Source: Streptacidiphilus sp. PB12-B1b
GTDB lineage: Bacteria; Actinomycetota; Actinomycetes; Streptomycetales; Streptomycetaceae
Assembly: GCF_014084125.1 (NCBI RefSeq)
Contig: NZ_CP048405.1
Coordinates: 372,001 to 436,000, forward strand
Length of the DNA stretch: 64,000 nt
Direction of reading: 5' to 3'
The notes beneath the pieces were generated by a model. The model was not told where the DNA came from, ran no database searches, and saw only the letters and a program-made list of their open reading frames with translations. The number at the start of each line of letters is the position of its first letter. The first letter of the stretch is position 1. Made by a program: the position numbers and the translations under genes. Of the stretch, positions 15,239 through 59,965 are shown piece after piece.

Positions 15239-15346
15239 AGCTTTCTTAGTAGGGCAGCGGGCTGGCGCCAGGGCCCATAGGTGTGGCACAAATGAACCCG
15301 AACTGGCGCGTCGGACTTTCCGGCCGAGTGGGGCGAGGGAGTTCTC

Positions 15347-15748
15347 GTGGTGTTGTCCCGGGGCACGGGGCCCGGTAAGCCGGACGGCTCCAGCGGTTCC
15401 CGGCGTCCGGCCGGTGCGCTGGAGGCCGAGGTGCTCACGGTCGTGTGGAGCCATGGGGAGGCGATGTCGGTTAGCGAGGTGCAGCAGGCGCTGTCCGCTG
15501 ATCTGGCGTACCGGACGGTGCTGACGGTGCTGACCCGGCTGCATGCGAAGGGACTGCTGGAGCGAGTGCCGGTCGGTCGGTCGCACGCCTACAGTCCTCG
15601 CCGGGATCCGGCGGAGTTGGCGGCGGAGCGGATGGATGCCGCTCTTCGGGCCGGTCCGCAGCGGTCTGAGGTGTTGCAGCACTTCGTGGGTCGCTTGGAG
15701 CCGGACGAGCAGGCGGTGCTGCGCGACCTGCTTGAGCGCGGCGACTGA
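15347..15748 (+). CDS. BlaI/MecI/CopY-family repressor (copy 1)
   Basis: A 133-residue winged-helix repressor. After a Ser/Gly-rich lead the helix-turn-helix region reads ALEAEVLTVVWSHGEAMSVSEVQQAL followed by YRTVLTVLTRLHAKGLL, the typical BlaI recognition helix and wing. The C-terminal helix region (EVLQHFVGRLEPDEQAVLRDLLE) is the dimerisation part. The GTG start follows GGCGAGGGAG. It lies 11 bases before a gene for an M56 membrane metallopeptidase, the usual sensor partner. I see no TACA-TGTA operator directly upstream. The nearest such palindrome is in front of pstB at 17630, so the pst operon is a candidate target. Confidence 0.92.
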   Translation: MVLSRGTGPGKPDGSSGSRRPAGALEAEVLTVVWSHGEAMSVSEVQQALSADLAYRTVLTVLTRLHAKGLLERVPVGRSHAYSPRRDPAELAAERMDAALRAGPQRSEVLQHFVGRLEPDEQAVLRDLLERGD

Positions 15749-43870: not shown

Positions 43871-44440
43871 TCAGCCGATGCTGGCGAGGGTGAAGGTGTC
43901 CGTAGCTGTGCCGGCGACGTAGAAGGGCTTGCCGAGCACGACCTGGCCCACGGAGTTGAAGGTGGCGTCCATGACCCGGTACGGCGTGTCGCCGACCTGG
44001 TTGGTCGGCTCGAAGGCGTACTGGTTCGCGGCGGCGTTGACGGGCGGCAGGGTCCACATCTGCCCGGTGCTCTCGGGTGTCGTGTGCAGGCAGTCGCTCT
44101 GGCGGATGCCGAAGCGGAACTGGGCCAGGCACAGGCCGCTGGCCGCGTTGACCACGTTGTAGGTACCGGACGCCTGACCGGCGACGGGCTGGAAGGTGAA
44201 CTGCTGCTCGGTGGCGCCCGAGCACGTCGAGCCGACCAGGTTGGTGTTGATGTTCGTAGTCCCGCCCGGCACGTCGACGCAGGAGTGGGTGGCAGCCGAG
44301 TAGATGGTGCTGGTGAAGGTCGTCGCCAGAGCGGTGTCTGCCCTGGCACCGTGCGACGGGGCGGCGCTGGCCGAAGGCGTGGCGAACAGCAGCAGGGCGC
44401 CGACTGCGGTCAGCGTCGCGGTCAGGGATCGCTGGTTCAT
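43871..44440 (-). CDS. Secreted ricin-type beta-trefoil protein 1
   Basis: A 189-residue exported protein: signal peptide with cleavage near TPSASA, then beta-trefoil-like repeats. The ricin signature is seen as TIYSAATHSCVDVPGG, and a second repeat NVVNAASGLCLAQFRFGIRQSDCLHTTPESTGQMWTLPPV with the Q-x-W-like motif QMW. It is probably a carbohydrate-binding protein outside the cell. A paralogue with the same repeat order is at 57707-58219. Confidence 0.8.
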   Translation of the reverse strand: MNQRSLTATLTAVGALLLFATPSASAAPSHGARADTALATTFTSTIYSAATHSCVDVPGGTTNINTNLVGSTCSGATEQQFTFQPVAGQASGTYNVVNAASGLCLAQFRFGIRQSDCLHTTPESTGQMWTLPPVNAAANQYAFEPTNQVGDTPYRVMDATFNSVGQVVLGKPFYVAGTATDTFTLASIG

Positions 44441-46276: not shown

Positions 46277-46891
46277 ATGGCGACACAAGCGGAGTTCGGG
46301 CCTCTGACCCGGGCCAGAGGAACGGTCCTGTCCGGCGGCGTGACGGGCAGGCTGCATCGGGCGGCGGTGGTGCGGATCGGCTTCGGGCTGGTCTGGGCGA
46401 TCGACGCGTCGTTCAAGTGGCTGCCGGGTTTTTTGCGTGGCCAGACCATCTCTGACGAGCTCGGCCAGGGCAGCGCGGTCCACACTCCGGTGATCCACCA
46501 GTGGATTCAGATGTGGCACGGCATCGCCACCACCTCGCCCGGGACGTTCGCCGTGGGGACCGCCGTGATCGAGACCCTGATCGCGTTGGGACTGGTCTTC
46601 GGGGCCTTCAGCAACCTGGTCTTCATCGGCAGCGCCGTCTACTCGCTCGGCATCTGGTCCTCTGCCGAGGCGTTCGGGCTGCCCTGGAACACCCCGGGCA
46701 TCACCGATGTGGGCCCCTCGGTCGCCTACATCTTCGCGTCTCTCGCGCTGATGCACGCCTACGCGGGCTCCACCTGGAGCCTCGACACCCGCCTGCGTCC
46801 CCGCCTCGGCCGCCTCGCCTGGCTGGCCGGACCCACGCCCGAGGAGATCCAGCAGCGTACCGCCCACCCCGCCCCCACATCGGCGGTCTGA
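46277..46891 (+). CDS. DoxX-like membrane protein
   Basis: A 204-residue protein with four predicted helices. RIGFGLVWAIDASFKWLPGF begins the membrane part, a pattern typical of DoxX-like or TQO-small-subunit-like proteins, and TAVIETLIALGLVFGAFSN and SVAYIFASLALMHAYAG continue it. The ATG has GAGGAGC upstream. It precedes the two-component system and redox locus in the same direction, 116 bases away. A redox role is plausible but unproven. Confidence 0.7.
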   Translation: MATQAEFGPLTRARGTVLSGGVTGRLHRAAVVRIGFGLVWAIDASFKWLPGFLRGQTISDELGQGSAVHTPVIHQWIQMWHGIATTSPGTFAVGTAVIETLIALGLVFGAFSNLVFIGSAVYSLGIWSSAEAFGLPWNTPGITDVGPSVAYIFASLALMHAYAGSTWSLDTRLRPRLGRLAWLAGPTPEEIQQRTAHPAPTSAV

Positions 46892-47007
46892 GGAATACGG
46901 TCCACAGCTGTGCCTATAGGTATCCGGCGACCGGGCCGCCGGCAGGCGGCCCGGTCGCCGCGCTGTCCCGCAGCGATGCTGCCCCGGTGGTCGCCTACTC
47001 TGGCGCC

Positions 47008-47703
47008 ATGCAGAAGACGGGCGTGGACGCCGTGAGGGTTCGGGTGCTGGTGGTCGAGGACGACCCGGGGATCGCCAGGTCGCTGGTGCGCGGGCTGGAG
47101 CGGGCCGGTTACCTGGCGCGGAGCGTCGACACCGGCCGGGCGGCACTGGCCGTCGAGCCGGCCCCGGACCTGGTGCTGCTGGACCTGGGCCTGCCGGACC
47201 TGGACGGTGTCGAGGTCTGCCGGCTGCTGCGGCGGCGTTCGGACCTGGCCGTGATCGTGGTGACCGCGCGGGGCGAGGAGGGCGACCGAGTCTCGGCCCT
47301 GGACGAGGGCGCGGACGACTACCTGGTCAAACCGTTCGGCCTCGCCGAACTCCTCGCCCGGGTCCGCGCGGTCCTGCGACGGACCCGCCCGCAGATCACC
47401 GAGCTGATGCAGCACGGACCCCTCTCGGTGGACCCGAGGACCCGCAAGGTCACCGTCAACGAGCAGGAAGTCGTGCTGACCGCGAAGGAGTTCGACATCC
47501 TGGAGTGCCTGGCGGTGGACCCGGGACGGGTGGTGACCAGGCAAGAGATCCTGGAACGCGCCTGGGACGCCCACTGGTACGGCCCCACCAAGGTCCTGGA
47601 CGTCCACATGGCGGCCCTGCGCCGCAAACTGGGCGTCCCGGGGCTGGTGGAGACGGTCTACGGCCGCGGCTTCCGGCTCAGCGACCCGGCGGAGTCCCCG
47701 TGA
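47008..47703 (+). CDS. OmpR-family response regulator
   Basis: About 231 residues. Receiver domain: VLVVEDDPGIARSLVRGL, phospho-acceptor Asp59 in LVLLDLGLPDLDG, and the Lys in ADDYLVKPFGLAELLARV. A winged-helix output domain follows (LTAKEFDILECLAVDPGRVVTRQEIL, VLDVHMAALRRKLG, VYGRGFRL). GTGs at 47029 and 47038 are alternative starts. The stop overlaps the kinase GTG start (GTGA), so they are coupled. Its genomic position ahead of the flavin redox genes makes that locus the likely target. Confidence 0.95.
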   Translation: MQKTGVDAVRVRVLVVEDDPGIARSLVRGLERAGYLARSVDTGRAALAVEPAPDLVLLDLGLPDLDGVEVCRLLRRRSDLAVIVVTARGEEGDRVSALDEGADDYLVKPFGLAELLARVRAVLRRTRPQITELMQHGPLSVDPRTRKVTVNEQEVVLTAKEFDILECLAVDPGRVVTRQEILERAWDAHWYGPTKVLDVHMAALRRKLGVPGLVETVYGRGFRLSDPAESP

Positions 47704-49115
47704 CCCGGCGGATCGCACTGACCGTGCTCGCCCTGGTCACCGTGCTCCTGACCCTGGCAGTGGTACCGCTCGGGGTACTGCTCACCGACCGCGAGCAGAC
47801 CTCGTTCCGCGCCTCAGCGCAGGCGGACGCCCAGCAGCTGGCCGCCGCCGCCGAGGAGAACCTGTCCGACCACCGGTCCGACACCTCGATGCTGCAACTC
47901 CTGGCGGCGGCCCAGGCCCGCGGCGACTGCGCGGCGGTCTACGACTCCGCCTCCCGCCTGGTCGCACGGACCCCCTGCGACGACGCCACCGGCGGTAGTG
48001 CCCCGGCCCTGGTCACCGCCACGCTGGCCCATCCGCAGACCAGCGCCAGGCAGGCGGGGGAGCGGCTCACCGTCGCGACACCGGTCGGCGACATCCAGGA
48101 CATCTCCGGAGTCACCGTCCTGGTCCGGTCCGCCGACCCGCTGAACGACCGGATCTGGGCGGTGTGGGGCTGGCTCGCGCTGATCGCGGTGGCCGCGCTG
48201 CTCGCGGGGACCTTCGTGTCCGTCCGGCTCGCCCGCTGGGTCGGCAGCCCCCTGCACACCCTCGACCAGGCCGCGCAGCACCTGGGCGAGGGCGCGCTGG
48301 AGGTCCGCGCACCCGCCGGGCAGGGCCCGCAGGAGGTCCGCCGGCTGGCGGCGACCTTCAACACCATGGCCGGACGCACCGAAGCGCTCGTCCACGGTCA
48401 CCGCACCGTCCTGGCCGATGTCTCGCACCAGCTGCGGACGCCGCTGGCCGCACTGCGGCTGCGGCTGGACCTGCTGGCGGCCGACGTCGACGGGGACGCG
48501 GCGCAGGAGCTCGCGGGGGCGCAGGAGGAGATCGCCCGGCTGTCGCGGCTGGTGGACGGGCTGCTGGCGGTCGCCAGGGCGGAGGGCGCGGTACCGCGCC
48601 CGGTCGCGGTCCGGGTGGACCAGGTGGTGGCCGAGCGGCTGGCCGCCTGGGAACCGGTCGCAGCCGAGCGCCAGGTGTCGCTGTCCGCGCGCGGCGGCGA
48701 GGGGCTCACGGTGCTCCTGGGCGCCGGTGACCTGGAGCAGGTGCTGGACAACCTCGTGGCCAACGCCCTCGACGCGGTGCCCGAGGGCGGCACGGTGCGG
48801 ATCCGGGCCGAGGCGGGCTCGGGGCTGGCCGGGCAGGCGGCGGTGGAACTGCGGGTGGTCGACAACGGTCCTGGGATGAGCGTGCGGGCGCGGGAGTCGG
48901 CGTTCCGCCGCTTCGGCAATCCGGAAGCGGGCGGCACCGGCCTGGGGCTGGCGATCGTGCACCGGCTGGTCACCGCGAACGGTGGCACGGCCCGTCTGGA
49001 GGACAGCGCGGGCGGTGGCTTGACCGTGGTCCTGGACCTCCCACGGCGGCCGCGTGGCCAGGGTCGCGGCAGCGGTCAGCAGCCGCCGACCGGTGAGTCG
49101 CCGACCCCACGGTGA
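47700..49115 (+). CDS. Sensor histidine kinase
   Basis: A 471-residue membrane kinase: two helices flanking an extracytoplasmic sensor region (about residues 30-155) that contains two Cys (RGDCAAVY and RTPCDD), then HAMP, the phospho-acceptor His243 in DVSHQLRTPL, N-box NLVANALDAVP, G1 DNGPGM and G2 GTGLGLAIVHRL. The pair of extracytoplasmic Cys is compatible with redox sensing but may simply form a disulfide. It partners the overlapping response regulator. Confidence 0.94.
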   Translation: MTRRIALTVLALVTVLLTLAVVPLGVLLTDREQTSFRASAQADAQQLAAAAEENLSDHRSDTSMLQLLAAAQARGDCAAVYDSASRLVARTPCDDATGGSAPALVTATLAHPQTSARQAGERLTVATPVGDIQDISGVTVLVRSADPLNDRIWAVWGWLALIAVAALLAGTFVSVRLARWVGSPLHTLDQAAQHLGEGALEVRAPAGQGPQEVRRLAATFNTMAGRTEALVHGHRTVLADVSHQLRTPLAALRLRLDLLAADVDGDAAQELAGAQEEIARLSRLVDGLLAVARAEGAVPRPVAVRVDQVVAERLAAWEPVAAERQVSLSARGGEGLTVLLGAGDLEQVLDNLVANALDAVPEGGTVRIRAEAGSGLAGQAAVELRVVDNGPGMSVRARESAFRRFGNPEAGGTGLGLAIVHRLVTANGGTARLEDSAGGGLTVVLDLPRRPRGQGRGSGQQPPTGESPTPR

Positions 49116-49379
49116 AGCTCACGATCAGACCGGCGAAGGCGAGGAACGCTGCCGTACCGGCGCGTGCGCCCGCGCCCGCGCCTTGGTCTTTTCGGATCCT
49201 GGATCTGCTCTGAGCTGGTCTTTCTTCGGGCTTTACGGGTTCCGAAGGATTTCTGAACGGGTTCCCGACCCCTCGTCCCGGAGGCTGTAGACCGGACGCG
49301 TTTCGGGCGTGTCCGCCGGGCCGCCGCACCACCGGACGGTGCAGCGGCTCTGGTTCACCGACGCGCGAGGAGCTCCACG

Positions 49380-49781
49380 ATGCCCCACACCGATCGGGTC
49401 CACGACGCTGCCTCGGCTCGTCGGCGTGACAGGGGACTGCGACGGGTCAAGCTGACCACCATCGCCATAGCCGCGACCGCCGCCGCCGGGTCCGTCGTGC
49501 TGGGTGCCGGTTACGCCTCGGCCCTGCCCGGATCTTCCCCAGCAAGTACTCCGGCGCCCCATGCCGCTGCCGCGCAGCCCTCGCGCACCCCCTCGAACGA
49601 CAGCACGCCCGCGCACAGCCCGGCACCGAAGACAGCGCCCAAGGCCGCTCCGAGTACGGCGCCGAAGGCCGCGCCGTCGAGTGCGCCGAGCACCGCGCTG
49701 CAACCGCCGACGCAGGCCCCGGCGGCGGCCCCGACCACGCAGGCACCACAGCCCGCGCAGGCCACCTCGGGCGGATCGTGA
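49380..49781 (+). CDS. Membrane-anchored Ala/Pro-rich protein in the redox locus
   Basis: A 133-residue protein with a basic N-terminus, one hydrophobic segment (about residues 25-47, TTIAIAATAAAGSVVLGAGYASA) and a long low-complexity extracytoplasmic part of Ala, Pro, Ser and Thr with repeated PKAAPS/APKTAPK units. It could be a spacer or cell-wall-spanning stalk. The ATG has GAGGAGCTCC upstream. The apbE start overlaps its stop by four bases, so it belongs to the flavin operon. Confidence 0.65.
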   Translation: MPHTDRVHDAASARRRDRGLRRVKLTTIAIAATAAAGSVVLGAGYASALPGSSPASTPAPHAAAAQPSRTPSNDSTPAHSPAPKTAPKAAPSTAPKAAPSSAPSTALQPPTQAPAAAPTTQAPQPAQATSGGS

Positions 49782-50725
49782 CCGCCCTGGCCGGACCGGC
49801 GGCCGCGCCGGTCCGACTGGTCTTCCCGGCCCTGGGCACCACGGCGGTGCTGCTGGTCGAGGACCCCGCCGCGCTGGAGCCGGCGCGCGCGGTGCTGGTG
49901 GCCGAGCTGGCCGCGATCGACGCCGCGTGCAGCCGGTTCCGCCCGGACTCGGAACTCTCGCGCGCCAACGCCGCTGCGGGCGTCCCGGTGACCGTCGGCC
50001 CGCTCTTCGCCGAGGCACTGGACGCCGCCCTGCGGGCCGCCGAGCTCACCGACGGCGTGGTCGACCCCACGGTCGGCCCCTCCCTGGTCGCGCTCGGCTA
50101 CGACCGGACATTCGCTTCAGTGCGCCCGGAGGAGGTCGCCCCGATCAGTCCGGTGCCGGCCGGCGGCTGGCGCGGCGTCGAATGGGACGCGCGGACGCGT
50201 CGGCTGCGGCTGCCCGCCGGAACCGGCCTGGACCTGGGCGCCACCGCCAAGGCCCTGGCCGCCGACCGGGCCGCCGACCTGGCCGCTCGCGCGGCCGGAT
50301 GCGGGGTGCTGGTCAGCCTCGGCGGCGACCTGTCCATCGCCGGAGCGGTGCCCGACCAGGGCTGGCAGGTGAAGATCGCCGACCACCACGCCGCCCCGCC
50401 CACCGCCCCCGGACCGGTGGTGACGCTGCGGACCGGCGGCCTGGCGACCTCCGGCACCACCGTCCGCGCCTGGCGGCGCGGCGACCGGGCCCTGCACCAC
50501 ATCGTCGACCCGTCCACCGGGGACGTCCCCGCGCCGGTCTGGCGCACGGTCAGCGTCGCCGCCGCGAACTGCGTGGACGCGAACACCGCCAGCACCGCCG
50601 CGATCGTCCTCGGCGAACGGGCACCCGCCTGGCTCAGCGCCGCCGCACTGCCCGCGCGCCTGGTCCGCACCGATGGAACCGTGGTCACCATGAGCGGCTG
50701 GCCGACCGAAGGCGACCCCCGATGA
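49778..50725 (+). CDS. apbE: FAD:protein FMN transferase (ApbE)
   Basis: A 315-residue ApbE-fold enzyme. It hydrolyses FAD and attaches FMN through a phosphoester to Thr or Ser of target proteins. Motifs: LDLGATAKALAADRAADLA (the family LGG-x-x-K-G-type segment), LVSLGGDL, and the substrate-binding ALHHIVDPSTGDVP. No lipobox is visible and there is no clear signal peptide, so cytoplasmic or N-in localisation is possible. The likely target is the FMN-binding protein at 56014, which has an SGAT motif. Overlaps both neighbours by four bases. Confidence 0.92.
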   Translation: MTALAGPAAAPVRLVFPALGTTAVLLVEDPAALEPARAVLVAELAAIDAACSRFRPDSELSRANAAAGVPVTVGPLFAEALDAALRAAELTDGVVDPTVGPSLVALGYDRTFASVRPEEVAPISPVPAGGWRGVEWDARTRRLRLPAGTGLDLGATAKALAADRAADLAARAAGCGVLVSLGGDLSIAGAVPDQGWQVKIADHHAAPPTAPGPVVTLRTGGLATSGTTVRAWRRGDRALHHIVDPSTGDVPAPVWRTVSVAAANCVDANTASTAAIVLGERAPAWLSAAALPARLVRTDGTVVTMSGWPTEGDPR

Positions 50726-51453
50726 GCACCAGCACCGTGATCCAGCTCGCCGCCGGCCCGAGCCCGCTGTGGTACACCACCCGGGCCAGCGGCACCGTCG
50801 CGCTGGTACTGCTCACCGCCACCGTCGTGCTCGGCATCGCGGGTGGCGGCCAACTGGCGCCCAAGCGGATCGCCCGGTTCGAGGTCAGCACGCTGCACCG
50901 CAACCTGTCGCTGCTGACCCTGGTGTTCCTGGCGCTGCACATCACCACCGCGATCGCCGACACCTTCGTGAGTCTGACCTGGTGGGACGCGGTGGTGCCG
51001 TTCGCCGCCTCGTACCGGCCGCTGTGGGTCGGCCTCGGCGCCCTCGCGTTCGACCTGCTGCTCGCGGTCCTGCTCACCAGCGCGGTACGGCTGCGGCTGG
51101 GCGTGCGGCGCTGGAAGGCGGTGCACTGGCTGGCGTACGCGGCCTGGCCGCTGGCGGTCTTCCACGGCGCGGGCACCGGCACCGACACCCGGCTCTCGCT
51201 GCAACTCGCCCTCAACGCTCTCTGTGTGGCCGCAGTCGTGGTCGCCGTGTGGTGGCGGCTCCACCGGCTGGGTCCGGAACACCGCACCGCCAAGCTGTGG
51301 GCGGGCGCGGCCAGCGTGCTCGTCCCGGTGGTGCTGGTGGTGTTCCTGGCGGCGGGCCCGCTCAAGGCCGGATGGGCGCAGCGTGCCGACGGCAGCCGCA
51401 CTCCGGCCGCCGTCTCGACGGCTACTACCGACCGAACGGAGGCCGCCTCATGA
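50722..51453 (+). CDS. Ferric-reductase-like heme membrane protein
   Basis: A 243-residue membrane protein with six helices, corresponding to the ferric-reductase-like transmembrane (YedZ-type) domain. Bis-His heme pairs are suggested by STLHRNLSLLTLVFLALHITTAIAD in one helix and VHWLAYAAWPLAVFHGAGTG in another. It has no FAD/NAD domain. It would pass electrons across the membrane between the cytoplasmic flavin/FeS proteins and the extracytoplasmic flavoprotein. The start overlaps apbE (ATGA). Confidence 0.87.
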   Translation: MSTSTVIQLAAGPSPLWYTTRASGTVALVLLTATVVLGIAGGGQLAPKRIARFEVSTLHRNLSLLTLVFLALHITTAIADTFVSLTWWDAVVPFAASYRPLWVGLGALAFDLLLAVLLTSAVRLRLGVRRWKAVHWLAYAAWPLAVFHGAGTGTDTRLSLQLALNALCVAAVVVAVWWRLHRLGPEHRTAKLWAGAASVLVPVVLVVFLAAGPLKAGWAQRADGSRTPAAVSTATTDRTEAAS

Positions 51454-52790
51454 GCGCGACCCAGGCCACCACCCCGCACTCCCCGGCCGCCGACGGCCCC
51501 ATGGGCCCGTACGGCAGTCGGCTGCTCGATGGCTGGTTCAGCACCGGCAGCCCCGCCGATCTCGACCAGCACCTGCACCGCTACGGCCCGCCCCCGCTGC
51601 CCCGCAGCCGCCAGGGCGGAGTGCTGATCCGCGCGGTGGAGGAGGCCGGGCTGACCGGTCGCGGCGGCGCGGCCTTCCCCACCGGACGCAAGCTGCGCAC
51701 CGTCGCCGAGGGACGCGGCACCGCCGTGGTGGTGGCGAACGGCATGGAGAGCGAACCGGCCAGCCGCAAGGACCAGCTGCTGCTGCACCTCGCCCCGCAC
51801 CTGGTCCTGGACGGCATGACCCTCGCCGCCGCGGCCGTCGGCGCCGACGAGATCCACCTGTGCCTGCCCCGCAGCCGCGACAACCAGCGGCAGGCGCTCA
51901 CTGCTGCCCTGGTTGCCCGCCGCCGCGCCGGTCTTGACCCGGTACCGGTCCGGATCCACACGCTGCCGCACCACTACGTCTCCAGCGAGGAGACCTCCCT
52001 GGTGAACTGGATCAACGGCGGCGACGCCCGGCCGCTGGCCACCCCGCCGCGCCCGTTCGAGAAGGGCGTGGCCGGTCGCCCGACGTTGATCGACAACGTC
52101 GAGACCCTGGCCCACCTGGCCCTGATCGCCCGCTACGGACCCGGCTGGTACCGCAGCACCGGCGCTGCCGACGCACCCGGCACCACTCTGGTCACCGTCA
52201 CCGGAACGGTCCACAATCCGGGTGTCTACGAGATCCCGCTGGGCACACCGATCGGCCAGGTCCTGGGCACGGCCGGAGGACCCGCCCAGCCACTGGGCGC
52301 GGTCCTGGTGGGCGGCTTCTTCGGCAGCTGGCTGACCGCCGCCGACGCCGCCCGGACGCCGTTCAGCAAGCCCGGCCTGGCCGCCGCCGGTGCCGGACCC
52401 GGCGCCGGTGTGCTGATCGCCCTCGCCGAGGGCGCCTGCGGGCTGGCCGAGACCGCCGACGTGCTGCGCTACCTCGCCGCCCAGAGCGCCCGCCAGTGCG
52501 GCCCCTGCCGCTTCGGGCTGCCCGCCGTCGCCGAGGACTTCGCCACCCTTGCTTGGGGCGGCGCGGACCGCGAGCTGATGGACCGGTTGCACCGCCGCGT
52601 CGGCCTGCTGCCCGGGCGCGGTGCCTGCCGCCACCCCGACGGAGCTGCCCGCCTGGCCGCCACCGCGCTGCAGGTCTTCGCCGACGACGTCCGCCACCAC
52701 CAGTACGGTCGGCCCTGTGCCGCCGCGAATGAACCGGCCACCGTCACCGTGCCCAACCTGCCGGCACCGGAACAGGAGGGGTGGCGATGA
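51450..52790 (+). CDS. NuoF-like NADH dehydrogenase flavin/FeS protein
   Basis: A 446-residue protein with the complex I 51-kDa-like layout. The FMN/NADH region includes GLTGRGGAAFPTGRKLRT and ANGMESEPASRKDQLLL; the SLBB-type segment TLVTVTGTVHNPGVYEIPLGTPIG follows; and the 4Fe-4S motif SARQCGPCRFG, with Cys again at GRGACRHPDG. A related electron-transfer protein occurs in RnfC-like and formate dehydrogenase complexes. It likely feeds NADH electrons into the ferredoxin and membrane hemes. The start overlaps the previous stop (ATGA). Confidence 0.9.
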   Translation: MSATQATTPHSPAADGPMGPYGSRLLDGWFSTGSPADLDQHLHRYGPPPLPRSRQGGVLIRAVEEAGLTGRGGAAFPTGRKLRTVAEGRGTAVVVANGMESEPASRKDQLLLHLAPHLVLDGMTLAAAAVGADEIHLCLPRSRDNQRQALTAALVARRRAGLDPVPVRIHTLPHHYVSSEETSLVNWINGGDARPLATPPRPFEKGVAGRPTLIDNVETLAHLALIARYGPGWYRSTGAADAPGTTLVTVTGTVHNPGVYEIPLGTPIGQVLGTAGGPAQPLGAVLVGGFFGSWLTAADAARTPFSKPGLAAAGAGPGAGVLIALAEGACGLAETADVLRYLAAQSARQCGPCRFGLPAVAEDFATLAWGGADRELMDRLHRRVGLLPGRGACRHPDGAARLAATALQVFADDVRHHQYGRPCAAANEPATVTVPNLPAPEQEGWR

Positions 52791-52996
52791 GCGGCCACAC
52801 GCTCGGCATCGACCGCATCGCCTGCCAAGGACGCGGCCTGTGCGCCGAACTCCTGCCCGAACGCATCGACCTGGACGAATGGGGATACCCCGTCATACCT
52901 GACCAAACCATCCCAGGGCCTCTGCTCACCCATGCCAGACGCGCCGTCGCCGGATGCCCCGTCCTCGCCCTGCGCCTGGAACGCTCCCGTCCCTGA
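52787..52996 (+). CDS. Small ferredoxin
   Basis: A 69-residue ferredoxin. Cluster cysteines: Cys at IACQGRGLC (C-x5-C) and Cys at AGCPVLAL before the conserved Pro, a pattern for one 3Fe-4S (or 4Fe-4S with another ligand) cluster as in P450-type actinobacterial ferredoxins. AGGAGG precedes the ATG, which overlaps the NuoF-like stop. It probably shuttles electrons between the NuoF-like protein and the membrane partners. Confidence 0.87.
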   Translation: MSGHTLGIDRIACQGRGLCAELLPERIDLDEWGYPVIPDQTIPGPLLTHARRAVAGCPVLALRLERSRP

Positions 52997-53097
52997 CGCG
53001 GAGCAGGTACGAGTCGCTTCCCTGAACCGCTTCTTAGGAACGATGGGGCCAGACTGCTCCCTGCACGGCTGCACGGCACCAGTGAAAGGACCCCTCC

Positions 53098-53802
53098 ATG
53101 CCCCTGACCGGCAGTGACGCGGCAGATCCCCGCACCCAGGACCTTCCCGTGCCCGCGTCGGACAGTGGACCGGAGGGCAACGAGCGGCTCACCGCGAGCA
53201 CCGGAGGGGTGCTCCTGGTGCTGTTCGCCGCCGAGGGCGTCACCATCCTTTCGCTGAGCCGACTGCTGACCTGGCACTACTTCTTCGGGTTCATGCTCAT
53301 CGGGCCGGTCCTACTCAAACTCGGCTCCACCCTCTACCGCTTCACCCGCTACTACAGCGGCGCCCCCGACTATCGGCGCAAGGGCCCGCCAATGCCGCTG
53401 CTGCGGGTCCTGGGCCCGTTCGTGGTGATCACCAGCGTCACCGTCATCGGCACCGGCGTCGCTCTGGGACTCCTGGGCACGGACGACAAGATCGGGCCCT
53501 TCCCGCTGCTGCTCCTGCACAAGGCGAGCTTCGTCGCCTGGGCCGCCGTCATGACTGTTCATGTCCTGGCCTACGTCTGGCGACTGCCCCGGCTGATCGG
53601 CGCCGACCTGAGCCGCCGCCCCGCCCGCCACGGCGAGCCCCAGCCCGGGCGGGCCGGGGCCCGTTGGTCCCTGCTCGCCGGGTCCCTCGCCATCGGCTTG
53701 ACCATCGCCCTGCTGGGCACACCCCTGGCGTCCAAATGGCGCGGAGCCGACCACCACGGCCACCACCGCGTCCACGTCGGAGCCCAGCACCAGGCCGGCT
53801 GA
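53098..53802 (+). CDS. b561-like multi-helix membrane protein
   Basis: A 234-residue protein with four to five helices. His residues at helix positions (LLTWHYFFGFMLIG, LLLHKASFVAWAAVMTVHVLAYVW) suggest heme b ligation, as in cytochrome b561/DUF4405-like proteins. The C-terminal tail is His-rich (GADHHGHHRVHVGAQHQ), which may bind metal. The ATG is preceded by AAAGGACC. It lies between the ferredoxin and the reductase in the redox locus. Confidence 0.75.
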   Translation: MPLTGSDAADPRTQDLPVPASDSGPEGNERLTASTGGVLLVLFAAEGVTILSLSRLLTWHYFFGFMLIGPVLLKLGSTLYRFTRYYSGAPDYRRKGPPMPLLRVLGPFVVITSVTVIGTGVALGLLGTDDKIGPFPLLLLHKASFVAWAAVMTVHVLAYVWRLPRLIGADLSRRPARHGEPQPGRAGARWSLLAGSLAIGLTIALLGTPLASKWRGADHHGHHRVHVGAQHQAG

Positions 53803-53901
53803 ACCGCATCCGCAGGTTCTCCTCACCCGCCGCCTACCCCCAGCGCAGCACACTGAGGGTAGGAACACCGGGATGCCCGCCATGCGGCGGGAGGCACGGA
53901 T

Positions 53902-54201
53902 GTGGGGACGACCATGGTGAATCCACGAGCCCGCGCACGCGACGAGGGCCTGGCCCGAACAGCCTCCTGGACCCGACGCACCGCCGCCGCAGCAGGGCTG
54001 CTCTGCGCAGCCCTCGCCACGTTCTTCGCCCATGCCCTGCCCGGACAGGCCGCAGCGCCGAGCACGTCGCCCTCGGGAGCCTCGGGGACTTCGGGGGACT
54101 CGGGTCACGGACAGCACGGCTCCCACGGCCAGGTCCAGAGCCCCGCGCAGCCCCCTGCACCGGGATCGGGAACGGGCCAGGCCGTCTCCGGAGCCTCGTG
54201 A
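53902..54201 (+). CDS. Exported or anchored small Ser/Gly/His protein
   Basis: A 99-residue protein from GTG 53902 (GGGAGG upstream) or ATG 53914. A basic N-terminus is followed by a hydrophobic segment (AAAAGLLCAALATFFAHALPG) and a low-complexity tail rich in Ser, Gly, Pro and His with HGQHGSHGQ. Unknown function. Like the protein at 49380 it may be a disordered accessory of the redox chain. Confidence 0.55.
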   Translation: MGTTMVNPRARARDEGLARTASWTRRTAAAAGLLCAALATFFAHALPGQAAAPSTSPSGASGTSGDSGHGQHGSHGQVQSPAQPPAPGSGTGQAVSGAS

Positions 54202-54360
54202 AGCCGGCACACGGCAACCCCCTACGGGACTTGTTGCCGCTCTGCGGCGAGCACGGTCGGCGGCGGTGATGAGGATCAGCACCGGCAGGCGGGATCCAGC
54301 CCGGTGCCGGCCGTCCACCTTCGCCCTGCTTCGACGGTGCGCTCAAGGGACGGAACCGCC

Positions 54361-54480
54361 GTGTTGGCCGACCTGGTGAGACGAGCGTGGAAGAGACTGC
54401 GAACGGTGGACGTCGAGGCGGTGCTCTTCTTCGCCGCGTCGGCCTATGTCCTGTGGCTCTGGTCGACCTGGCCCTCCTGA
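54361..54480 (+). CDS. Very small membrane protein (39 aa)
   Basis: GTG at 54361, preceded by AAGGGACGG, encodes a 39-residue protein: a basic helix MLADLVRRAWKRLRTVDVEA followed by a single hydrophobic span VLFFAASAYVLWLWSTW. The composition (positive-inside, one Trp-rich helix) is typical of real small membrane proteins. It sits between the b561-like and reductase genes in the same direction. Confidence 0.5.
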   Translation: MLADLVRRAWKRLRTVDVEAVLFFAASAYVLWLWSTWPS

Positions 54481-54592
54481 GGAACACCCACTGCCGACAT
54501 CGACGAGGGCCGCCGGCCCTGTGACCTCAGTGTTAGGTGCGAGAGGAGAAGGTGGCGCCACCACTTCCCCGCACCATGATGGAAGGCTGCTG

Positions 54593-55999
54593 ATGCCAGC
54601 AGTGAGCATGTCCGCGCACGAGCGGGCCAGGCACCGCGCGGCCCCGCCTCCGCCGCCCTCCCCACTGTCGGCGACGGGATCGCCCCGTTCGCTGGCGCTG
54701 CTCCTGGTGATCTGCGCCGGAGTACTGCCGGTGCTGTTCATCTGGTGGCAGAACACCATCGCCGGATCGCTGGACAGCCCGTCCGCCTGCCTCATCGCGG
54801 CCGGGAGCATAGCCGGGCTGCTGGCGGCGTACCTGCTGCTGGTGCTGGTCGCGCTGATGGCACGGGTACCGTGGCTGGAGAACCGGGTCGGCTCGGACGT
54901 GATCGCCCGCTACCACCGCTCGCTGGGCGAGTACACCGTCATCCTGGTCTGCGCCCACGCGCTGCTGCTCACCGTCGGCTACGCCTGGCAGGGCGGGACG
55001 AACCCGGTCTCCGAGAGCGTCACCCTGCTGTTCGACTACACCGACGTATGGCTGTCGACGATCGCGCTGGCACTGCTGCTGCTGGTCGGCGTGGTCTCCG
55101 CGCGCGCGGTGCGCCGGAAGCTGTCGTACGAGTCCTGGTACCACGTCCACCTGCTGGTGTACGCGGCGATCGGGCTGGCCTTCGCGCACGAGTTCGCGGT
55201 CGGCACCGAGTTCTCCGCCTCGTTGCGCAACCGGCTGCTGTGGTCGGCCGCGCACCTCGTGGTCGGCGCCGCCGTCCTGCTGTTCCGGGTGCTGCTGCCG
55301 CTGTGGCGTTCACTGCGGTACCGGGTGCGGGTCGCCCGGGTCGTCAGCGAGGGCCCGGGCGTCGTCTCGCTGCACCTGACCGGCCGGAACCTGGACCGGC
55401 TGGACGCCGAGGCGGGGCAGTTCCTGCGCTGGCGCTTCCTGGCCCGGGGGCACTGGTGGCAGTCCCACCCGTACTCGCTGTCCGCCGCGCCCTCCGCGGA
55501 CGGCCTGCGGATCACCGTCAAGGACCTCGGGGACGCCAGCTCCTCCCTCGCCCGGCTGGCCCCCGGCACCCGGGTCTGGTTCGAGGGCCCGTACGGGGCC
55601 TTCACCGCCCGCCGCCGCTCCCCCGCCCGACGCGTGCTGCTGATCGCCGGGGGCGCGGGCATCACCCCGCTCCGGGCGCTGTACGAGTCGCTGCCCGGAC
55701 GCGGATCGGACCTGGTGCTGATCTACCGCGCCTCCCGAGCCGAGGACCTGGTGCTCTACCGGGAGCTGGAAGCTATCGCCCGCCGACGTGGCCTGGGCCT
55801 GTTCGCCCGCGTCGGCCCACGCGGACACCCGGACCAGGACCCGCTGCGCGGCAGCGAACTGCGCGCGATGGTCCCGGACGTGGCCGACCGCGACGTCTAC
55901 CTCTGCGGCCCGGCCGGGATGACCCGCACGGTCAGCGCCCACCTGCGCGCCGCCGGAGTACCCAAGCAGCGGCTCCACATCGAGGCGTTCGAACTCTAG
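54593..55999 (+). CDS. Transmembrane ferredoxin/ferric reductase with FAD and NAD domains
   Basis: A 468-residue protein from ATG 54593 (GGAAGG upstream). The N-terminal half is a ferric-reductase-like heme domain with paired His (IARYHRSLGEYTVILVCAHALLL and SYESWYHVHLLVYAAIGLAFAHEF). The C-terminal half is a ferredoxin-NADP reductase module: FAD motif HPYSLSAAP (RxYS-like with His in place of Arg), NAD motif LIAGGAGITPLRALYE, CGPAGM and the C-terminal aromatic-acidic end IEAFEL. It moves electrons from NAD(P)H through FAD and hemes across the membrane. The FMN-binding gene follows after 14 bases. Confidence 0.93.
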   Translation: MPAVSMSAHERARHRAAPPPPPSPLSATGSPRSLALLLVICAGVLPVLFIWWQNTIAGSLDSPSACLIAAGSIAGLLAAYLLLVLVALMARVPWLENRVGSDVIARYHRSLGEYTVILVCAHALLLTVGYAWQGGTNPVSESVTLLFDYTDVWLSTIALALLLLVGVVSARAVRRKLSYESWYHVHLLVYAAIGLAFAHEFAVGTEFSASLRNRLLWSAAHLVVGAAVLLFRVLLPLWRSLRYRVRVARVVSEGPGVVSLHLTGRNLDRLDAEAGQFLRWRFLARGHWWQSHPYSLSAAPSADGLRITVKDLGDASSSLARLAPGTRVWFEGPYGAFTARRRSPARRVLLIAGGAGITPLRALYESLPGRGSDLVLIYRASRAEDLVLYRELEAIARRRGLGLFARVGPRGHPDQDPLRGSELRAMVPDVADRDVYLCGPAGMTRTVSAHLRAAGVPKQRLHIEAFEL

Positions 56000-56013
56000 G
56001 AGGCTGGCTACCC

Positions 56014-56466
56014 ATGCGCAGAATCACCGCGGGCCTGGCCGCCACCGCCGCCGCCGTCGCCCTGCTGATCGGCGTGAAGGCCAACTCGGCCAGCGCCCCC
56101 AGATCCGCCCTCGCCGGGGCGGGCAACACCCAGCCGGTACCGCAGGGCCCGACAGGCGCAAAGACTCCGGCACCGGGCAAGAGCGCAGCGGCCAACGGCA
56201 GCTTCCAGGGCAGCGTCATCGACACCCGATACGGCCCGGTGCAGGTCGAGGCCGTCGTCAAGGGCGGCAGACTCAGCAACGTCGTCGTGCTCCAGCAGAC
56301 CGACGGCGGACGCAGCAGCCAGATCGACTCCTACGCCCTGCCGTTGCTGACCGCCGAGGCACTGAAGGCACAGAGCGCCGACATCGACGTCGTCTCCGGC
56401 GCCACCTACACCTCCACCGGCTACGCCCAGTCCCTCCAGGCCGCACTCGATGCCGCCGCACGGTGA
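56014..56466 (+). CDS. Exported FMN-binding protein, ApbE target
   Basis: A 150-residue exported protein: signal anchor, Ala/Pro linker, and an FMN-bind domain starting GSFQGSVIDTRYGPVQVEAVVKGG. The flavinylation motif is DVVSGATYTS, with the acceptor most likely Thr131 of SGAT. AGGAGG upstream gives a strong start. In characterised systems (NqrC, RnfG, Fmn-bind of Listeria) this Thr carries FMN attached by ApbE. It is the terminal extracytoplasmic electron carrier of the cluster. Confidence 0.92.
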   Translation: MRRITAGLAATAAAVALLIGVKANSASAPRSALAGAGNTQPVPQGPTGAKTPAPGKSAAANGSFQGSVIDTRYGPVQVEAVVKGGRLSNVVVLQQTDGGRSSQIDSYALPLLTAEALKAQSADIDVVSGATYTSTGYAQSLQAALDAAAR

Positions 56467-56481
56467 ACAACGAGCCCTCTG

Positions 56482-56760
56482 CCCACCCTCGCCCGCTCGG
56501 AGCAGGGCGTCCGCGAGGTCGAGGACGACGACCTCACGGACATCATGGCCGAAGCCCTGGACCGGGTCGCGGCAGCCTCCCGGGTCCGGCACCTGCGACT
56601 GGAGAGCAGCCTGTCGGCTGCCCCGCTGCGCGGCAACATCGGCCTGCTGTCCATCGCGGTGGGCAACCTCCTGGACAACGCGGTGAACCACAACCACGAG
56701 GGCGGCCTGCTCAGCGTCACCACCCGTCACTGGCCATCGTCACCGCCCAGTGCGGACAAG
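56482..56760 (+). pseudogene. Histidine kinase C-terminal remnant
   Basis: One frame encodes LARSEQGVREVEDDDLTDIMAEALD followed by IGLLSIAVGNLLDNAVNHNHEGG. These are the DHp-to-HATPase link and the N-box (N-L-x-D-N-A-x-x-H-N) of a histidine kinase. The phospho-acceptor region before it and the G1/G2 boxes after it are missing. A frame from GTG or ATG within it exists but encodes no complete domain. Confidence 0.75.
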
Positions 56761-56870
56761 TCACCGCCCGCTCCCGTCAGACCGGCGGCCTCACTATCAC
56801 CCTGCGTTTGTCCTGAAAAGCGCCACGACACAGCCCGTAGTCCTGGGCTGGGCTGTCGGATCCGGGGAAC

Positions 56871-57608
56871 ATGGCAGACATGACCAACGCGGGTGGGACC
56901 ACCGTCGCCGACCACGGTGAACCCCACGATGATGCTTTAGGCAGTCGCCTCAACTGGCTGCGAGCGGGAGTCCTGGGAGCGAACGACGGAGTGGTGTCCA
57001 CGGCCGGCCTGGTCGTCGGTGTAGCAGGTGCGACCAGCTCCGCGCAGGCACTGCTGACCGCCGGACTCGCCGGACTCCTCGCCGGCTCTCTGTCGATGGG
57101 AGCCGGGGAATTCGTCTCGGTCAGCACCCAACGCGACTCCGAGCAAGCAGCTCTGGCATTGGAGAGGCGCGAGCTGGACGCGACGCCGGAAGCCGAACTA
57201 CTCGAACTGACCGGCATATACCAGGACAAGGGCCTTGACCCCGTCCTCGCCCGCCAGGTCGCGATCCAGCTCACCGCCCACGACGCCTTGGGCGCGCACG
57301 CCGAGACCGAGCTGGGCATCGACCCCGATCAACTGGCCAACCCGTGGCACGCGGCAGGTGCGAGCTTTCTGTCCTTCACTGTCGGCGCCCTGCTCCCGCT
57401 CTTGGGGATGGTGCTGCCTGCGGCCTCGGTCCGCCTCTACATCACCGTTGCCGCCGTACTCGCGGCACTGGTCCTGTGCGGCAAGGTCAGCGCACAGCTG
57501 GGACACGCCCCAGTGCGGCCTGCCGTGCTCCGCAATGTCGTCGGCGGTGCCCTGGCGATGGGCGTCACCTATCTCGCCGGAATCCTGCTGGGAGCCACCG
57601 GCCACTGA
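56871..57608 (+). CDS. VIT1/CCC1-family iron/manganese transporter
   Basis: A 245-residue membrane protein. N-terminal LNWLRAGVLGANDGVVSTAGLVVGVAGA and GSLSMGAGEFVSVSTQRDSE are diagnostic of the VIT1/CCC1 family (G-A-N-D-G and S-M-G-x-G-E-F/Y-V-S). The cytoplasmic helical metal-binding region contains repeated Glu (EAELLELTGIYQDKG). About five helices. It should export or sequester Fe(II)/Mn(II). Next to a ferric-reductase-like redox locus, which fits an iron-related role. Confidence 0.92.
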   Translation: MADMTNAGGTTVADHGEPHDDALGSRLNWLRAGVLGANDGVVSTAGLVVGVAGATSSAQALLTAGLAGLLAGSLSMGAGEFVSVSTQRDSEQAALALERRELDATPEAELLELTGIYQDKGLDPVLARQVAIQLTAHDALGAHAETELGIDPDQLANPWHAAGASFLSFTVGALLPLLGMVLPAASVRLYITVAAVLAALVLCGKVSAQLGHAPVRPAVLRNVVGGALAMGVTYLAGILLGATGH

Positions 57609-57706: not shown

Positions 57707-58219
57707 CTACGGTGTGGTGCTGAGTGTCAGGATCTGGGCCGGGATGGAGGCGCAGGCTGCAAGGTCGAACAGGGGGCCCGGGTATCCGCTCGGCGTCGGG
57801 TACACCTGGATGCAGTCGGCGTTGGACGTGCCGGCGGCGACGAACTGGTACTGGTCGGCGTTCGTGTCGACTTGCTGAAGCGTCCAAGCGGTGGAACTGC
57901 TGCATGCTTCCTGTCGAACCCCGAGGCGATACTTCGCGAGGCACAGGCCATTCGCCTGGCTGACGATCTGGTAGGTCGCGGTGGCGCCGGATACCCCTTG
58001 GAAGGCGAAGTGCTGGGCCGTCGACCCGTCGCAAGGGTGGCCGTACGTGTCGAGGAAGTAGTGGGCGGGGTCAGTGGTGCTGGTGTTCAGGCAGCTGTTC
58101 TGCGCCGCCGAGTAGATGGTGGCGATGGGAGCGGACGGGCCGGCGGCCCTCTGAGCCCCTGTGACCACGCCGACGACCGCGAAGACTGATGCTGCCACCA
58201 CGAATGCCCTGGGCGTCAC
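57707..58219 (-). CDS. Secreted ricin-type beta-trefoil protein 2
   Basis: A 170-residue protein from GTG 58219, where AGTAGGGGGA precedes a signal peptide (MTPRAFVVAASVFAVVGVVTG). Ricin-type features: TIYSAAQNSCLNTSTTD, then IVSQANGLCLAKYRLGVRQEACSSSTAWTLQQV (second repeat with W motif). It is paralogous to the protein at 43871: both share SAA-x-x-SC and GLCLA-x-(F/Y)-R-x-G-(I/V)-RQ. A longer in-frame start at 58366 would overlap the IS end. Confidence 0.75.
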   Translation of the reverse strand: MTPRAFVVAASVFAVVGVVTGAQRAAGPSAPIATIYSAAQNSCLNTSTTDPAHYFLDTYGHPCDGSTAQHFAFQGVSGATATYQIVSQANGLCLAKYRLGVRQEACSSSTAWTLQQVDTNADQYQFVAAGTSNADCIQVYPTPSGYPGPLFDLAACASIPAQILTLSTTP

Positions 58220-58358
58220 GATGTGTCCCCCTACTTCGCCCGCAGTAGGTCCGCGGGTCACCCGTAATTCCATCCCCGTGACCGGCGACGGCGCTCTCCA
58301 TAGTGCTTTGGCTGCCGCATGCATGACAAGGTTCTCGGTCGGGCTGAACCAGTTCTTA

Positions 58359-59280
58359 GAGGGCATCTCGTGTGAGTAGTTTGTCCTTGATGCCCTAGTA
58401 CGTGCCTCGCCAGGTTGATGTGGTCTCGTCCGTTATGCGCTTGGCGAGGTTGTCGATCGAGGCGATGTGGATCATGGCCTCGGAGCTGGCGGGGAGGGTC
58501 TCGTAGTCGCGGGCGAGGCGCCGGCGCAGCATGATCCAACCCAGGCTTCGTTCGACTACCCACCGCCTTTTCACCACGTGAAATCCGGGGATGTCGGACT
58601 TGCGGTGGACGACTTCGACGTCGATGCCGAGGGTGGCGCCGTGCTCGACCATGGCGTTTTTGAAGCCGGTGTCTACCCAGCTCTTGGAGATGCTTGGGTA
58701 TGTTTTCTTGGCCTGGTTGAGGAGGCGGATTCCGAGGGCGTTCTCGGACAGGCTCGCGGCGGTGACGGCGACGGCGAGGATGAGTCCGACGGTGTCGGTC
58801 AGTATGCCTCTCTTCCGGCCGACGATCTTCTTGGCGGCGTCGGTTCCCTGGCTGCTCAGGGGCACGTTAGTGGAGGTCTTGACGCTCTGGGTGTCGATGA
58901 CGGACGCGGTCGGCTCGGGGCTGCGTCCCTCTTTCACGCGGGCGAGTCCGGTGAGGTCGTAGTTGAGTTCGGCGAAGATGCCTTCGTCGCGCCAGGCGGC
59001 GTAGTAGGCATAGACGGTGCCGTGGTTGGGGAAGTCGTGCGGAACGTACTTCCAGGGGATTCCGGTGCGATTGACGTAGAGGATTGCGTTGAAGACGTCG
59101 CGGAGGTCTACTTTCGCTGGCTGGCCGGTGGGCCGGCGATCGAGCCGGGCTTTCCTCCAAGCCGTCAGTTTCGGCTCGATCAGGGCCCATCGGGCGTCGG
59201 AGAGGTCGCTGGGGTACGGCTTGCGCTGGCTCACGGCACGGTATTGCCATGCGCATGACGGAACTTGTCGTTCCGCCCTC
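58359..59280 (-). mobile_element. IS5-family insertion sequence A
   Basis: About 0.9 kb containing one transposase. Boundaries are tentative: GAGGGC at 58359 and its complement GCCCTC at 59275-59280 are placed symmetrically 36 and 41 bases outside the coding sequence, but the inner bases of the proposed ends match poorly and no target duplication is visible. Confidence 0.6.
58395..59234 (-). CDS. IS5-family transposase (element A)
   Basis: A 279-residue DDE transposase. N-terminal helix-turn-helix-type DUF4096 region: PSDLSDARWALIEPKL. Catalytic parts: SVIDTQSVKTS (first Asp), WVDTGFKNAMVEHGATLGIDVEVV (second Asp) and RRWVVERSLGWIMLRRRLARDYE (catalytic Glu in V-E-R-S-x-x-W). It appears full length with all three acidic residues. 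Single ORF, no frameshift. Confidence 0.92.
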   Translation of the reverse strand: MSQRKPYPSDLSDARWALIEPKLTAWRKARLDRRPTGQPAKVDLRDVFNAILYVNRTGIPWKYVPHDFPNHGTVYAYYAAWRDEGIFAELNYDLTGLARVKEGRSPEPTASVIDTQSVKTSTNVPLSSQGTDAAKKIVGRKRGILTDTVGLILAVAVTAASLSENALGIRLLNQAKKTYPSISKSWVDTGFKNAMVEHGATLGIDVEVVHRKSDIPGFHVVKRRWVVERSLGWIMLRRRLARDYETLPASSEAMIHIASIDNLAKRITDETTSTWRGTY

Positions 59281-59486: not shown

Positions 59487-59965
59487 TTCATCCTCTTGTC
59501 GGGAGTGAGTGGGGCGGCGGTGGGCTCGCCGGTCGGCAGGGGCTGTGCGGTGGTGAACTGCCCGGGTGCGATCTCAGTCAGGATTCCGTGCCTGGTCAGG
59601 CGCTTGAGCTTGGTGCGGATGTTGTTGATGTTGTTCGGTGTGAGGGGCAGGTCCATCGCCTCGCAGACGTTCCGGGCCCGCAGGGGAGCGTCGGTGTCGG
59701 CGAATACGGCCAGGATCTGCTGGTAGGCGGGACCCTCGGGGACGACCACGGTCGGCGTCGTCGCCGGCGGCACTTCGTCGGGCAGGTTGAGGAGTGTTTT
59801 GCGGGTGATCGCGATGTGGTCGGCGGCCTGGGCGAGCCCGTCCAATAGCGCGGTGAGCTGCGTGATCTGCTCGTGGGCGGCTTCCGCCTGCGCGGCGATT
59901 TGCTTCTCCTGGGCCTCCAGGCGCACCAGCAGGGCGCCGAGGGTCTGGTGTTCGTCGCCGCTCAC
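59477..59965 (-). CDS. IS-encoded accessory protein of unknown function
   Basis: A 162-residue protein whose GTG start overlaps the transposase stop (GTGA), so it is translated from the transposase message, inside the IS ends. Residues about 8-55 form a likely coiled coil (LGALLVRLEAQEKQIAAQAEAAHEQITQ...). Residues about 80-140 look like a winged helix (AYQQILAVFADTDAPLRARNVCEAMDL, then NNIRTKLKRLTRHGILTEIAPGQF). It resembles a DNA-binding regulator. IS5 elements usually encode only a transposase. Confidence 0.75.
   Translation of the reverse strand: MSGDEHQTLGALLVRLEAQEKQIAAQAEAAHEQITQLTALLDGLAQAADHIAITRKTLLNLPDEVPPATTPTVVVPEGPAYQQILAVFADTDAPLRARNVCEAMDLPLTPNNINNIRTKLKRLTRHGILTEIAPGQFTTAQPLPTGEPTAAPLTPDKRMNQT

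Follow-up and report, generated by a model that had tools for sequence, protein, structure and literature searches.

Gene content of the locus

The window analysed here, a 64,000-nucleotide stretch of Streptacidiphilus sp. PB12-B1b, carries at positions 46277-57608 a locus of flavin, heme and iron-sulfur protein genes (Table 1). Its genes fall into module A, made up of a two-component system, a small tail peptide, ApbE (the flavin adenine dinucleotide (FAD):protein flavin mononucleotide (FMN) transferase), the heme protein FR1, a NuoF-like protein, a ferredoxin (Fd) and often a b561-like protein, and module B, made up of FR2, an FMN_bind protein and a VIT-family transporter. Judged from comparative sequence evidence, module A is likely to be a transmembrane electron-transfer operon in which a dedicated clade of ApbE, hereafter clade A, attaches FMN to the C-terminal serine of the tail, a small membrane-anchored peptide without a flavin-binding domain.

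The families listed in a first-pass annotation of this DNA (ApbE, FR1, NuoF-like protein, ferredoxin, FR2, FMN_bind, VIT and the two-component system) were all recovered by Pfam over cut-off, and an independent count placed the acceptor residue of the FMN_bind protein, within SGATYT, at Thr131, as annotated. The proposed DoxX-like protein did not reach the Pfam cut-off, and locus comparison placed such a protein near module A in the window only. Nearly all genes had been described as coupled by ATGA overlaps, which is correct for ApbE/FR1 (50722), FR1/NuoF-like (51450) and NuoF-like/ferredoxin (52787); the four-base overlaps between regulator and kinase (47700) and between tail peptide 1 and ApbE (49778) are GTGA, and the junctions 3' of 52996 are gaps with no four-base overlap. 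Absent from that gene list were the two tail open reading frames (ORFs) and a possible kinase remnant. Composition and tRNA scans of the window returned nothing bearing on the electron-transfer question.

Table 1. Features of the locus, with window positions and the matches on which each assignment rests
Feature	Position	Strand	Evidence
DoxX-like protein	46277-46891		Pfam match under cut-off, E 0.064
Response regulator (Response_reg + Trans_reg_C)	47008-47703	+	Pfam E 1.9e-25 and 2.9e-21
Sensor histidine kinase	47700-49115	+	HATPase_c E 4.3e-22, HisKA, HAMP
Tail peptide 1, 133-residue ORF, candidate ApbE substrate	49380-49781	+	No Pfam family
ApbE, FAD:protein FMN transferase	49778-50725	+	PF02424, 173.6 bits
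FR1, MsrQ-like Ferric_reduct membrane protein without NAD domain	50722-51453	+	PF01794, 35 bits (cut-off 28)
NuoF-like FMN/NADH and Fe-S protein	51450-52790	+	PF01512 E 7.1e-33, PF10589 E 2.6e-13, PF10531
Three-cysteine ferredoxin (Fd)	52787-52996	+	PF13459 E 7.7e-12
b561-like membrane protein, family unassigned	53098-53802	+	No Pfam cut-off reached; three invariant His
Tail peptide 2, small membrane-anchored-looking ORF	53914-54201	+	No Pfam family
FR2, Ferric_reduct + FAD + NAD-binding transmembrane reductase (module B)	54593-55999	+	Pfam
FMN_bind protein, hydrophobic N-terminus, SGATYT (module B)	56014-56466	+	PF04205 E 2.1e-9
Possible histidine-kinase remnant, between module B and VIT	~56500-56816	+	HATPase_c match under cut-off, E 0.083
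VIT-family transporter (VIT1), module B side	56871-57608	+	PF01988 E 6.1e-66

Conservation of modules A and B

A clear orthologue of the NuoF-like protein (at least 507.9 bits, the next match reaching 323.7) was found in 33 of 297 Streptomycetaceae genomes, that of the window included. Named relatives of this protein come from Streptacidiphilus, Actinacidiphila, Streptantibioticus, Streptomyces, Kitasatospora, Catenulispora, Actinospica and Trebonia and from metagenome-assembled genomes; the six genera other than Streptomyces and Kitasatospora are acid-soil actinomycetes. After removal of duplicates, 53 unique loci with a NuoF-like orthologue, window included, formed comparison set A1; L066, a 37-residue match in Mycobacterium celatum, had no NuoF-like ORF and was left out. 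The recurrent gene order in these 53 loci is regulator, kinase, small ORF, ApbE, FR1, NuoF-like protein and Fd, with regulator and kinase both exceeding 250 bits in 43/53 and a b561-like protein present in 29/53. Two further sets were analysed: the paralogous group A2 (L129-L136), whose NuoF is about 50% identical, and the class loci, 62 loci from 60 of the Actinomycetes genomes that encode a clade-A ApbE. This clade was detected at E<=1e-40 in 62 of 394 sampled Actinomycetes genomes, the window's own and 61 others. Tail peptide, ApbE, FR1, NuoF-like protein and Fd make up the conserved unit, which the two-component system and the b561-like protein often accompany.

The first-pass annotation had united all listed genes in one chain, in which both heme proteins and the NuoF/ferredoxin branch serve the FMN_bind protein, ApbE loads Thr131 and iron is reduced. 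The layout of the window fits this picture, as all genes share one strand and fit within 11 kb, the ApbE of module A is the one nearest to the FMN_bind gene, and VIT adjoins. Conservation does not. FR2 and FMN_bind stand beside module A in only 2/53 loci, the window and, in divergent orientation, L047, so that module B is a neighbour outside the conserved unit; by set, FMN_bind lies nearby in 2/52 A1, 0/8 A2 and 0/62 class loci. In 24 larger FMN_bind loci, module B stands alone, with FR2 next to FMN_bind; a two-component pair in divergent orientation and an ApbE of canonical type are often present, and neither NuoF nor ferredoxin gave a match there. Moreover, the window's genome has a second, canonical-type ApbE. 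A single chain joining the two modules was rejected on this co-occurrence, and we consider it very unlikely. The suggested link to iron through VIT is likewise weak for module A, since VIT lies near it in 4/53 loci; three of the 24 larger FMN_bind loci have it. The gene observation of the first-pass annotation was thus mostly right and its one-chain interpretation was not.

Just past VIT, two transposase-like ORFs (58395-59234 and 59962-60792, minus strand), recognised by eye from their translations, could be the source of the unusual neighbourhood of module B. The whole locus is also flanked by two secreted-looking minus-strand ORFs (43871-44440 and 57707-58366) that look alike by eye (TIYSAA..SC..., GLCLA..R.G.RQ), hinting at a duplication or insertion event.

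A third FR-NuoF pair, whose NuoF is 42-48% identical, was also observed (L137-L144; in the window's own genome at G000:C1 ~1587082-1588278). It lies in similar chromosomal surroundings in L137, L138 and L144, and these pairs gave no ApbE, FMN_bind, ferredoxin or tail matches. They may represent a form that preceded the addition of flavinylation.

Predicted membrane-anchored tails with a conserved C-terminus

Tail peptide 1 consists of a positively charged N-terminus, one membrane helix and a Pro/Ala-rich linker of about 89 residues with the C-terminus QATSGGS, and tail peptide 2 of a membrane helix, a His/Gly/Pro-rich linker and the C-terminus GQAVSGAS. The same build recurs in other loci, where the N-terminus is rich in Arg and a single hydrophobic helix leads into a long stretch, Pro/Ala-, Ser- or Gly-rich, which varies between loci and brings the tail to 37-159 residues past the helix. 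No Pfam domain over cut-off was detected in the seven tails examined; as regards FMN_bind, the window's two tails have none and the five tails of relatives none over cut-off. Short and without such a domain, these peptides are easily missed by domain-based surveys. Their C-termini resemble the site modified by ApbE, an enzyme that takes FMN from FAD and attaches it to the final residue of a motif of seven, D-x-x-[ST]-G-A-[ST] (PMC12052999).

An ORF ending [ST]-G-[AG]-S was found in 46/53 A1 loci, usually directly 5' of ApbE, when plus-strand ORFs of at least 60 residues in the operon region were counted; in one of the 46 (L096) no helix lies in the same frame. Of the seven loci without a counted tail, two (L056 and L065) are truncated or in fragments, L088 carries its TGAS tail on the other strand, L093 has no tail, L078 ends TRSS, and the relaxed ends of L034 (YRAS) and L079 (SKAS) were not counted as tails. 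With the best-matching candidate used where several ORFs qualified, the tail stands just before ApbE or FR in 43/52 A1 and 8/8 A2 loci. Further tails with SGGS or SGAS ends lie 3' of the b561 gene in L038, L068, L071 and L072, where tail peptide 2 is placed in the window. The A2 tails have Ser-rich linkers and TSG[AGS]S ends in 8/8 and Asp at -7 in 5/8; those of L131 and L133 end DSTSGAS, which is the complete published ApbE motif.

Whole loci were then scanned for a helix followed by a low-complexity tail with the strict end [ST]G[AGS]S, anywhere and on either strand. Such tails occur in 46/53 A1 loci (not necessarily the same 46 as above, given the opposite-strand tail of L088), 8/8 A2 loci and 26/62 class loci. 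The scan found none in the 24 FMN_bind loci (0/24, 328 kb) and none in the FR-NuoF loci without ApbE (0/8, 156 kb). A first FMN_bind control had given 0/34 (L145, with no anchor, was left out), with 30 of the 34 loci about 3 kb long and short upstream of FR2; it was redone on the 24 loci, larger stretches being taken for 20. The background frequency of [ST]G[AGS]S ends is 4 in 1801 coding-like ORFs, and two of these four are tails beside ApbE.

The 62 class loci contain an FR protein in 57 cases, NuoF in 52, ferredoxin in 51 and FMN_bind in none. Just before ApbE, the tail ends with the strict motif in 24 and with a looser [GA]S in 24, has an internal motif in one and no motif in two, and was not found in 11, which include contig edges and tails elsewhere in the operon. 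Residue -4 of the looser tails, which was not fixed by their selection, is S or T in 25/25, giving ends of the form [ST]-x-[GA]-S (TRGS, TQGS and SNGS were seen) with no Gly at -3. In G299, G444 and G508, which have no tail at the ApbE locus, a tail ending SRGS lies elsewhere, in two of them beside FR1-NuoF. A hand tally by a looser definition (a C-terminal [GA]S, an SGGS-type motif near the end, or a tail elsewhere in the operon or genome) gave a tail in 58 of the 61 Actinomycetes genomes with the ApbE clade, the others being G526 and G562, both at a contig edge, and G347.

Variant tails were observed in L271, L273, L274 and L222, where an extension, rich in Gly/Asp or longer, comes after the SGGS motif, so that not every tail has a free serine at its C-terminus. 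Distant from module A in L081, a coding-like ORF (15212-15610, plus strand) ending GGSHTSTGAS is possibly another tail peptide.

Linkage of the tails to one ApbE clade

The window ApbE, aligned to 1vrm, 4xdt and others, matches PF02424 over cut-off and carries the conserved histidine of the HH(I/L)xDP region, His241, which is present in 125/125 aligned sequences. In an unrooted tree, 21 of 22 FMN_bind-linked ApbEs are split from all 40 clade-A ApbEs by a branch with 100/100 support; the remaining row, L111, is a wrongly extracted ORF on a very long branch and was ignored.

Ten genomes (11 loci) have a tail but no same-strand ApbE in the orthologous locus, and all ten encode a clade-A ApbE: in L053 it lies within the locus but on the other strand, and in the rest it lies elsewhere, in G651 only in pieces. 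In these cases the tail remains beside FR1, as expected if it is a working part rather than a maturation factor. L034 and L093 are the two uncut loci that lack both the tail motif and a local ApbE, and their genomes are without a clade-A ApbE: G661 (L034, decayed tail) has a weak canonical-type ApbE match only, and G016 (L093) canonical-type matches only.

No FMN_bind protein was found in 32 of the 61 class genomes with the clade (27 of 51 of good quality), and these 32 gave no DUF2271 over cut-off (0/32) and no DUF3570 (0/32). A single ApbE match is present in 23 of the 32, and by hand tally 22 of these 23 have a tail (9 strict, 13 looser), the other being G562, at a contig edge. A scan of NuoF, Fd, FR1 and b561, with the response regulator, the kinase and ApbE itself outside its scope, found no conserved [ST]G[AG][ST] acceptor motif, at most 4 of 124 sequences sharing a position; none of these four proteins is supported by it as the ApbE target.

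A different function could be proposed for the C-terminus, namely a signal for docking or localisation, whether to FR1, to the cell wall or for some other modification, that is not flavinylated, with ApbE modifying something else. The looser ends TRGS, TQGS and SNGS would suit a generic small C-terminal tag, and tails persist by FR1 where ApbE is unlinked. Against this, strict tails accompany the ApbE clade and are missing both from FMN_bind loci and from those FR-NuoF loci that have no ApbE, and the tail motif and ApbE are lost or altered together in L034, L093 and L078. The four partner families scanned are devoid of a conserved acceptor motif, and over half of the class genomes are devoid of FMN_bind. 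We regard a mere docking signal as unlikely.

The compartment of the tail was considered next to that of the enzyme. Clade-A ApbEs have no signal-like stretch (0/125) and thus do not appear exported or lipidated, unlike the usual enzymes of extracytosolic flavinylation. An FMN-loaded tail in the cytosol (N-out, C-in), shuttling electrons between the NuoF/ferredoxin side and FR1, would place enzyme and tail in the same compartment. The Arg-rich N-terminus before the helix and the nearly uncharged C-terminal side, judged by eye, predict instead that the C-terminus faces outwards. Furthermore, the FMN_bind-linked ApbEs of Streptomycetaceae (loci L099-L128, L145, L147, L148 and L275) show a signal-like stretch in 0/22 rows, one of which was wrongly extracted, and the FMN_bind proteins have a hydrophobic N-terminal stretch in 25/26; this count replaces an earlier scan (1/27), which could not be informative as its profile extends over the N-terminus. 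A signal-less ApbE is therefore no proof of a cytosolic substrate, since FMN_bind proteins pair with signal-less ApbEs too, and flavin loading before export may be an actinobacterial habit. A cytosolic tail appears quite unlikely to us.

Several observations weigh against flavinylation of the tails by clade A. A strict tail directly precedes ApbE in just the 24 of 62 class loci noted above, and another 24 class tails end loosely (xGS), with Gly at -3 in 0/24. Loose ends, although enriched in class loci (4.59 per 100 kb), are also present in the FMN_bind controls (0.91 per 100 kb), and a few looser class tails may be due to chance. L079 retains ApbE although its tail ends SKAS, as does L078 although its tail ends TRSS, the L078 ApbE being diverged. 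Among 17 loci around the ApbEs of the ten unlinked genomes, a strict tail lies just before ApbE in 4, the rest having an internal motif with extension (3), no motif (4) or no tail there (6); four of these ApbEs (L260, L262, L263 and L272) have neither FR nor tail nearby. Two positions of DxxSGA[ST] are not kept in the window tail QATSGGS, where Q replaces D and G replaces A, and ApbE prefers a Thr acceptor where the tails have Ser; a Ser acceptor is tolerated at lower yield, and the effect of an Asp-to-Ala change is minor (PMC12052999). An ApbE without signal peptide, and hence cytosolic, would need to load a tail that positive-inside reasoning places outside. Finally, an FMN_bind protein is encoded somewhere in each of the 33 Streptomycetaceae genomes that have module A, so that the argument from orphan ApbEs does not apply directly to the window.

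Redox proteins and proposed electron path

FR1 has four histidines, each conserved in 128/129 sequences, and probably carries two b hemes. The ferredoxin cysteines 13, 19 and 57 are found in 120-121 of 122 sequences. The NuoF-like protein aligns with complex I chain 1 in 2fug (E 2.1e-51) and scores 198.4 bits, below the NuoF equivalog cut-off of 558.65. In the alignment it has no counterpart of the first of the four cysteines in the NuoF cluster motif, which is therefore not intact, and Cys330, Cys350, Cys353, Cys393 and Cys423 are conserved in 115-120 of 124 sequences. Loss of the first cysteine together with the conserved Cys330 and Cys423 suggests a remodelled iron-sulfur site.

The b561-like assignment made in the first-pass annotation fared less clearly. 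His60, His141 and His155 are invariant in 31/31 relatives, but no Pfam cut-off was reached and the fold search was undecisive: the AlphaFold2 model is helical (pLDDT 76), Foldseek returned no match at E<=0.001, and the best VIA-align score (Z 8.8) falls among mixed helical bundles, with 4o6y (Z 7.0) not above unrelated bundles. We claim no fold identity for this protein, and the missing match is no evidence of a new fold.

Under the preferred reading of module A, as judged from the protein families, reduced nicotinamide adenine dinucleotide (NADH) would reduce the FMN of the NuoF-like protein, whose iron-sulfur centre would hand electrons to the three-cysteine ferredoxin, and the latter would reduce FR1. 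FR1 could then move electrons across the membrane to an FMN borne on the end of the disordered tail, which might swing to an outer acceptor. The two-component system probably controls expression. The outward NADH chain of the first-pass annotation is plausible, its general design having been published for Actinobacteria (PMC8238504), except that it would not end in FMN_bind.

Relation to known flavinylation systems

Clusters that join an MsrQ-like protein with ApbE are known in Actinobacteria, 31 with a NuoF-like protein and 153 with VIT1 in the part of the survey by Meheust et al. 2021 (PMC8238504) drawn on here. Module A is of this MsrQ-like kind: its PF01794 gene lies beside ApbE and a PF10589 NAD-binding partner, and in the surveyed clusters too a PF01794 heme protein is accompanied by ApbE and a PF10589 NuoF-like protein, with NAD(P)H as the likely donor. 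In the same portion of that source an FMN_bind gene is typical of these clusters (not required) and no tail is described, whereas module A has a tail and a ferredoxin and no FMN_bind. What is new here is module A without FMN_bind and with a tail peptide, a domain-less addition that is the best candidate ApbE substrate.

The tails share features with several known substrates. According to the portion of PMC8238504 considered, 17% of surveyed genomes encode ApbE without an FMN_bind protein, which DUF2271 and DUF3570 explain in part. Like the tails, these proteins lie beside "orphan" apbE genes, occur without FMN_bind and carry a conserved [S/T]GA[S/T]; their domains span about 135 and 420 residues, whereas the tails are domain-less and their motif is the C-terminus itself. 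FMN_bind carriers (PF04205) are membrane-anchored FMN carriers beside a heme protein, as is predicted for the tail, which lacks the FMN_bind domain. In the FMN_red proteins presented in the consulted part of Huang et al. 2024 (PMC11334425), which come mostly from Firmicutes, the flavinylation motif likewise lies on a C-terminal extension without structure; unlike the tails, these proteins have a folded flavin-binding domain, to which the extension is attached. The tails also resemble the engineered Flavin-tag of Tong et al. 2021, for which the available part of PMC12052999 indicates that a seven-residue acceptor at a protein terminus suffices for ApbE and that tags perform best at a terminus. 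That tag is a laboratory construct; the tails would be its natural equivalent, their motif having drifted. In the literature searched, a partial set that excludes bioRxiv, most subscription papers and supplements, we found no description of domain-less tail substrates with a C-terminal SGAS or SGGS.

We lean, with somewhat less assurance than for module A itself, towards regarding the tails as natural flavin tags: fold-less minimal flavoproteins with one FMN on a C-terminal serine and a tether reaching into or across the thick wall, which together would form a new class of ApbE substrates, spread over Actinomycetes and explaining a share of orphan apbE genes. Recognisable by their conserved C-terminus and their linkage to one ApbE clade, they provide a concrete candidate substrate for those actinobacterial genomes that have ApbE and lack FMN_bind. 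If this is true, an electron carrier needs no flavin-binding fold, and nature's own flavin tag would bear on extracellular electron transfer in Gram-positive soil bacteria. Confirmation would make the tails a novel type of flavoprotein, and a very minimal one.

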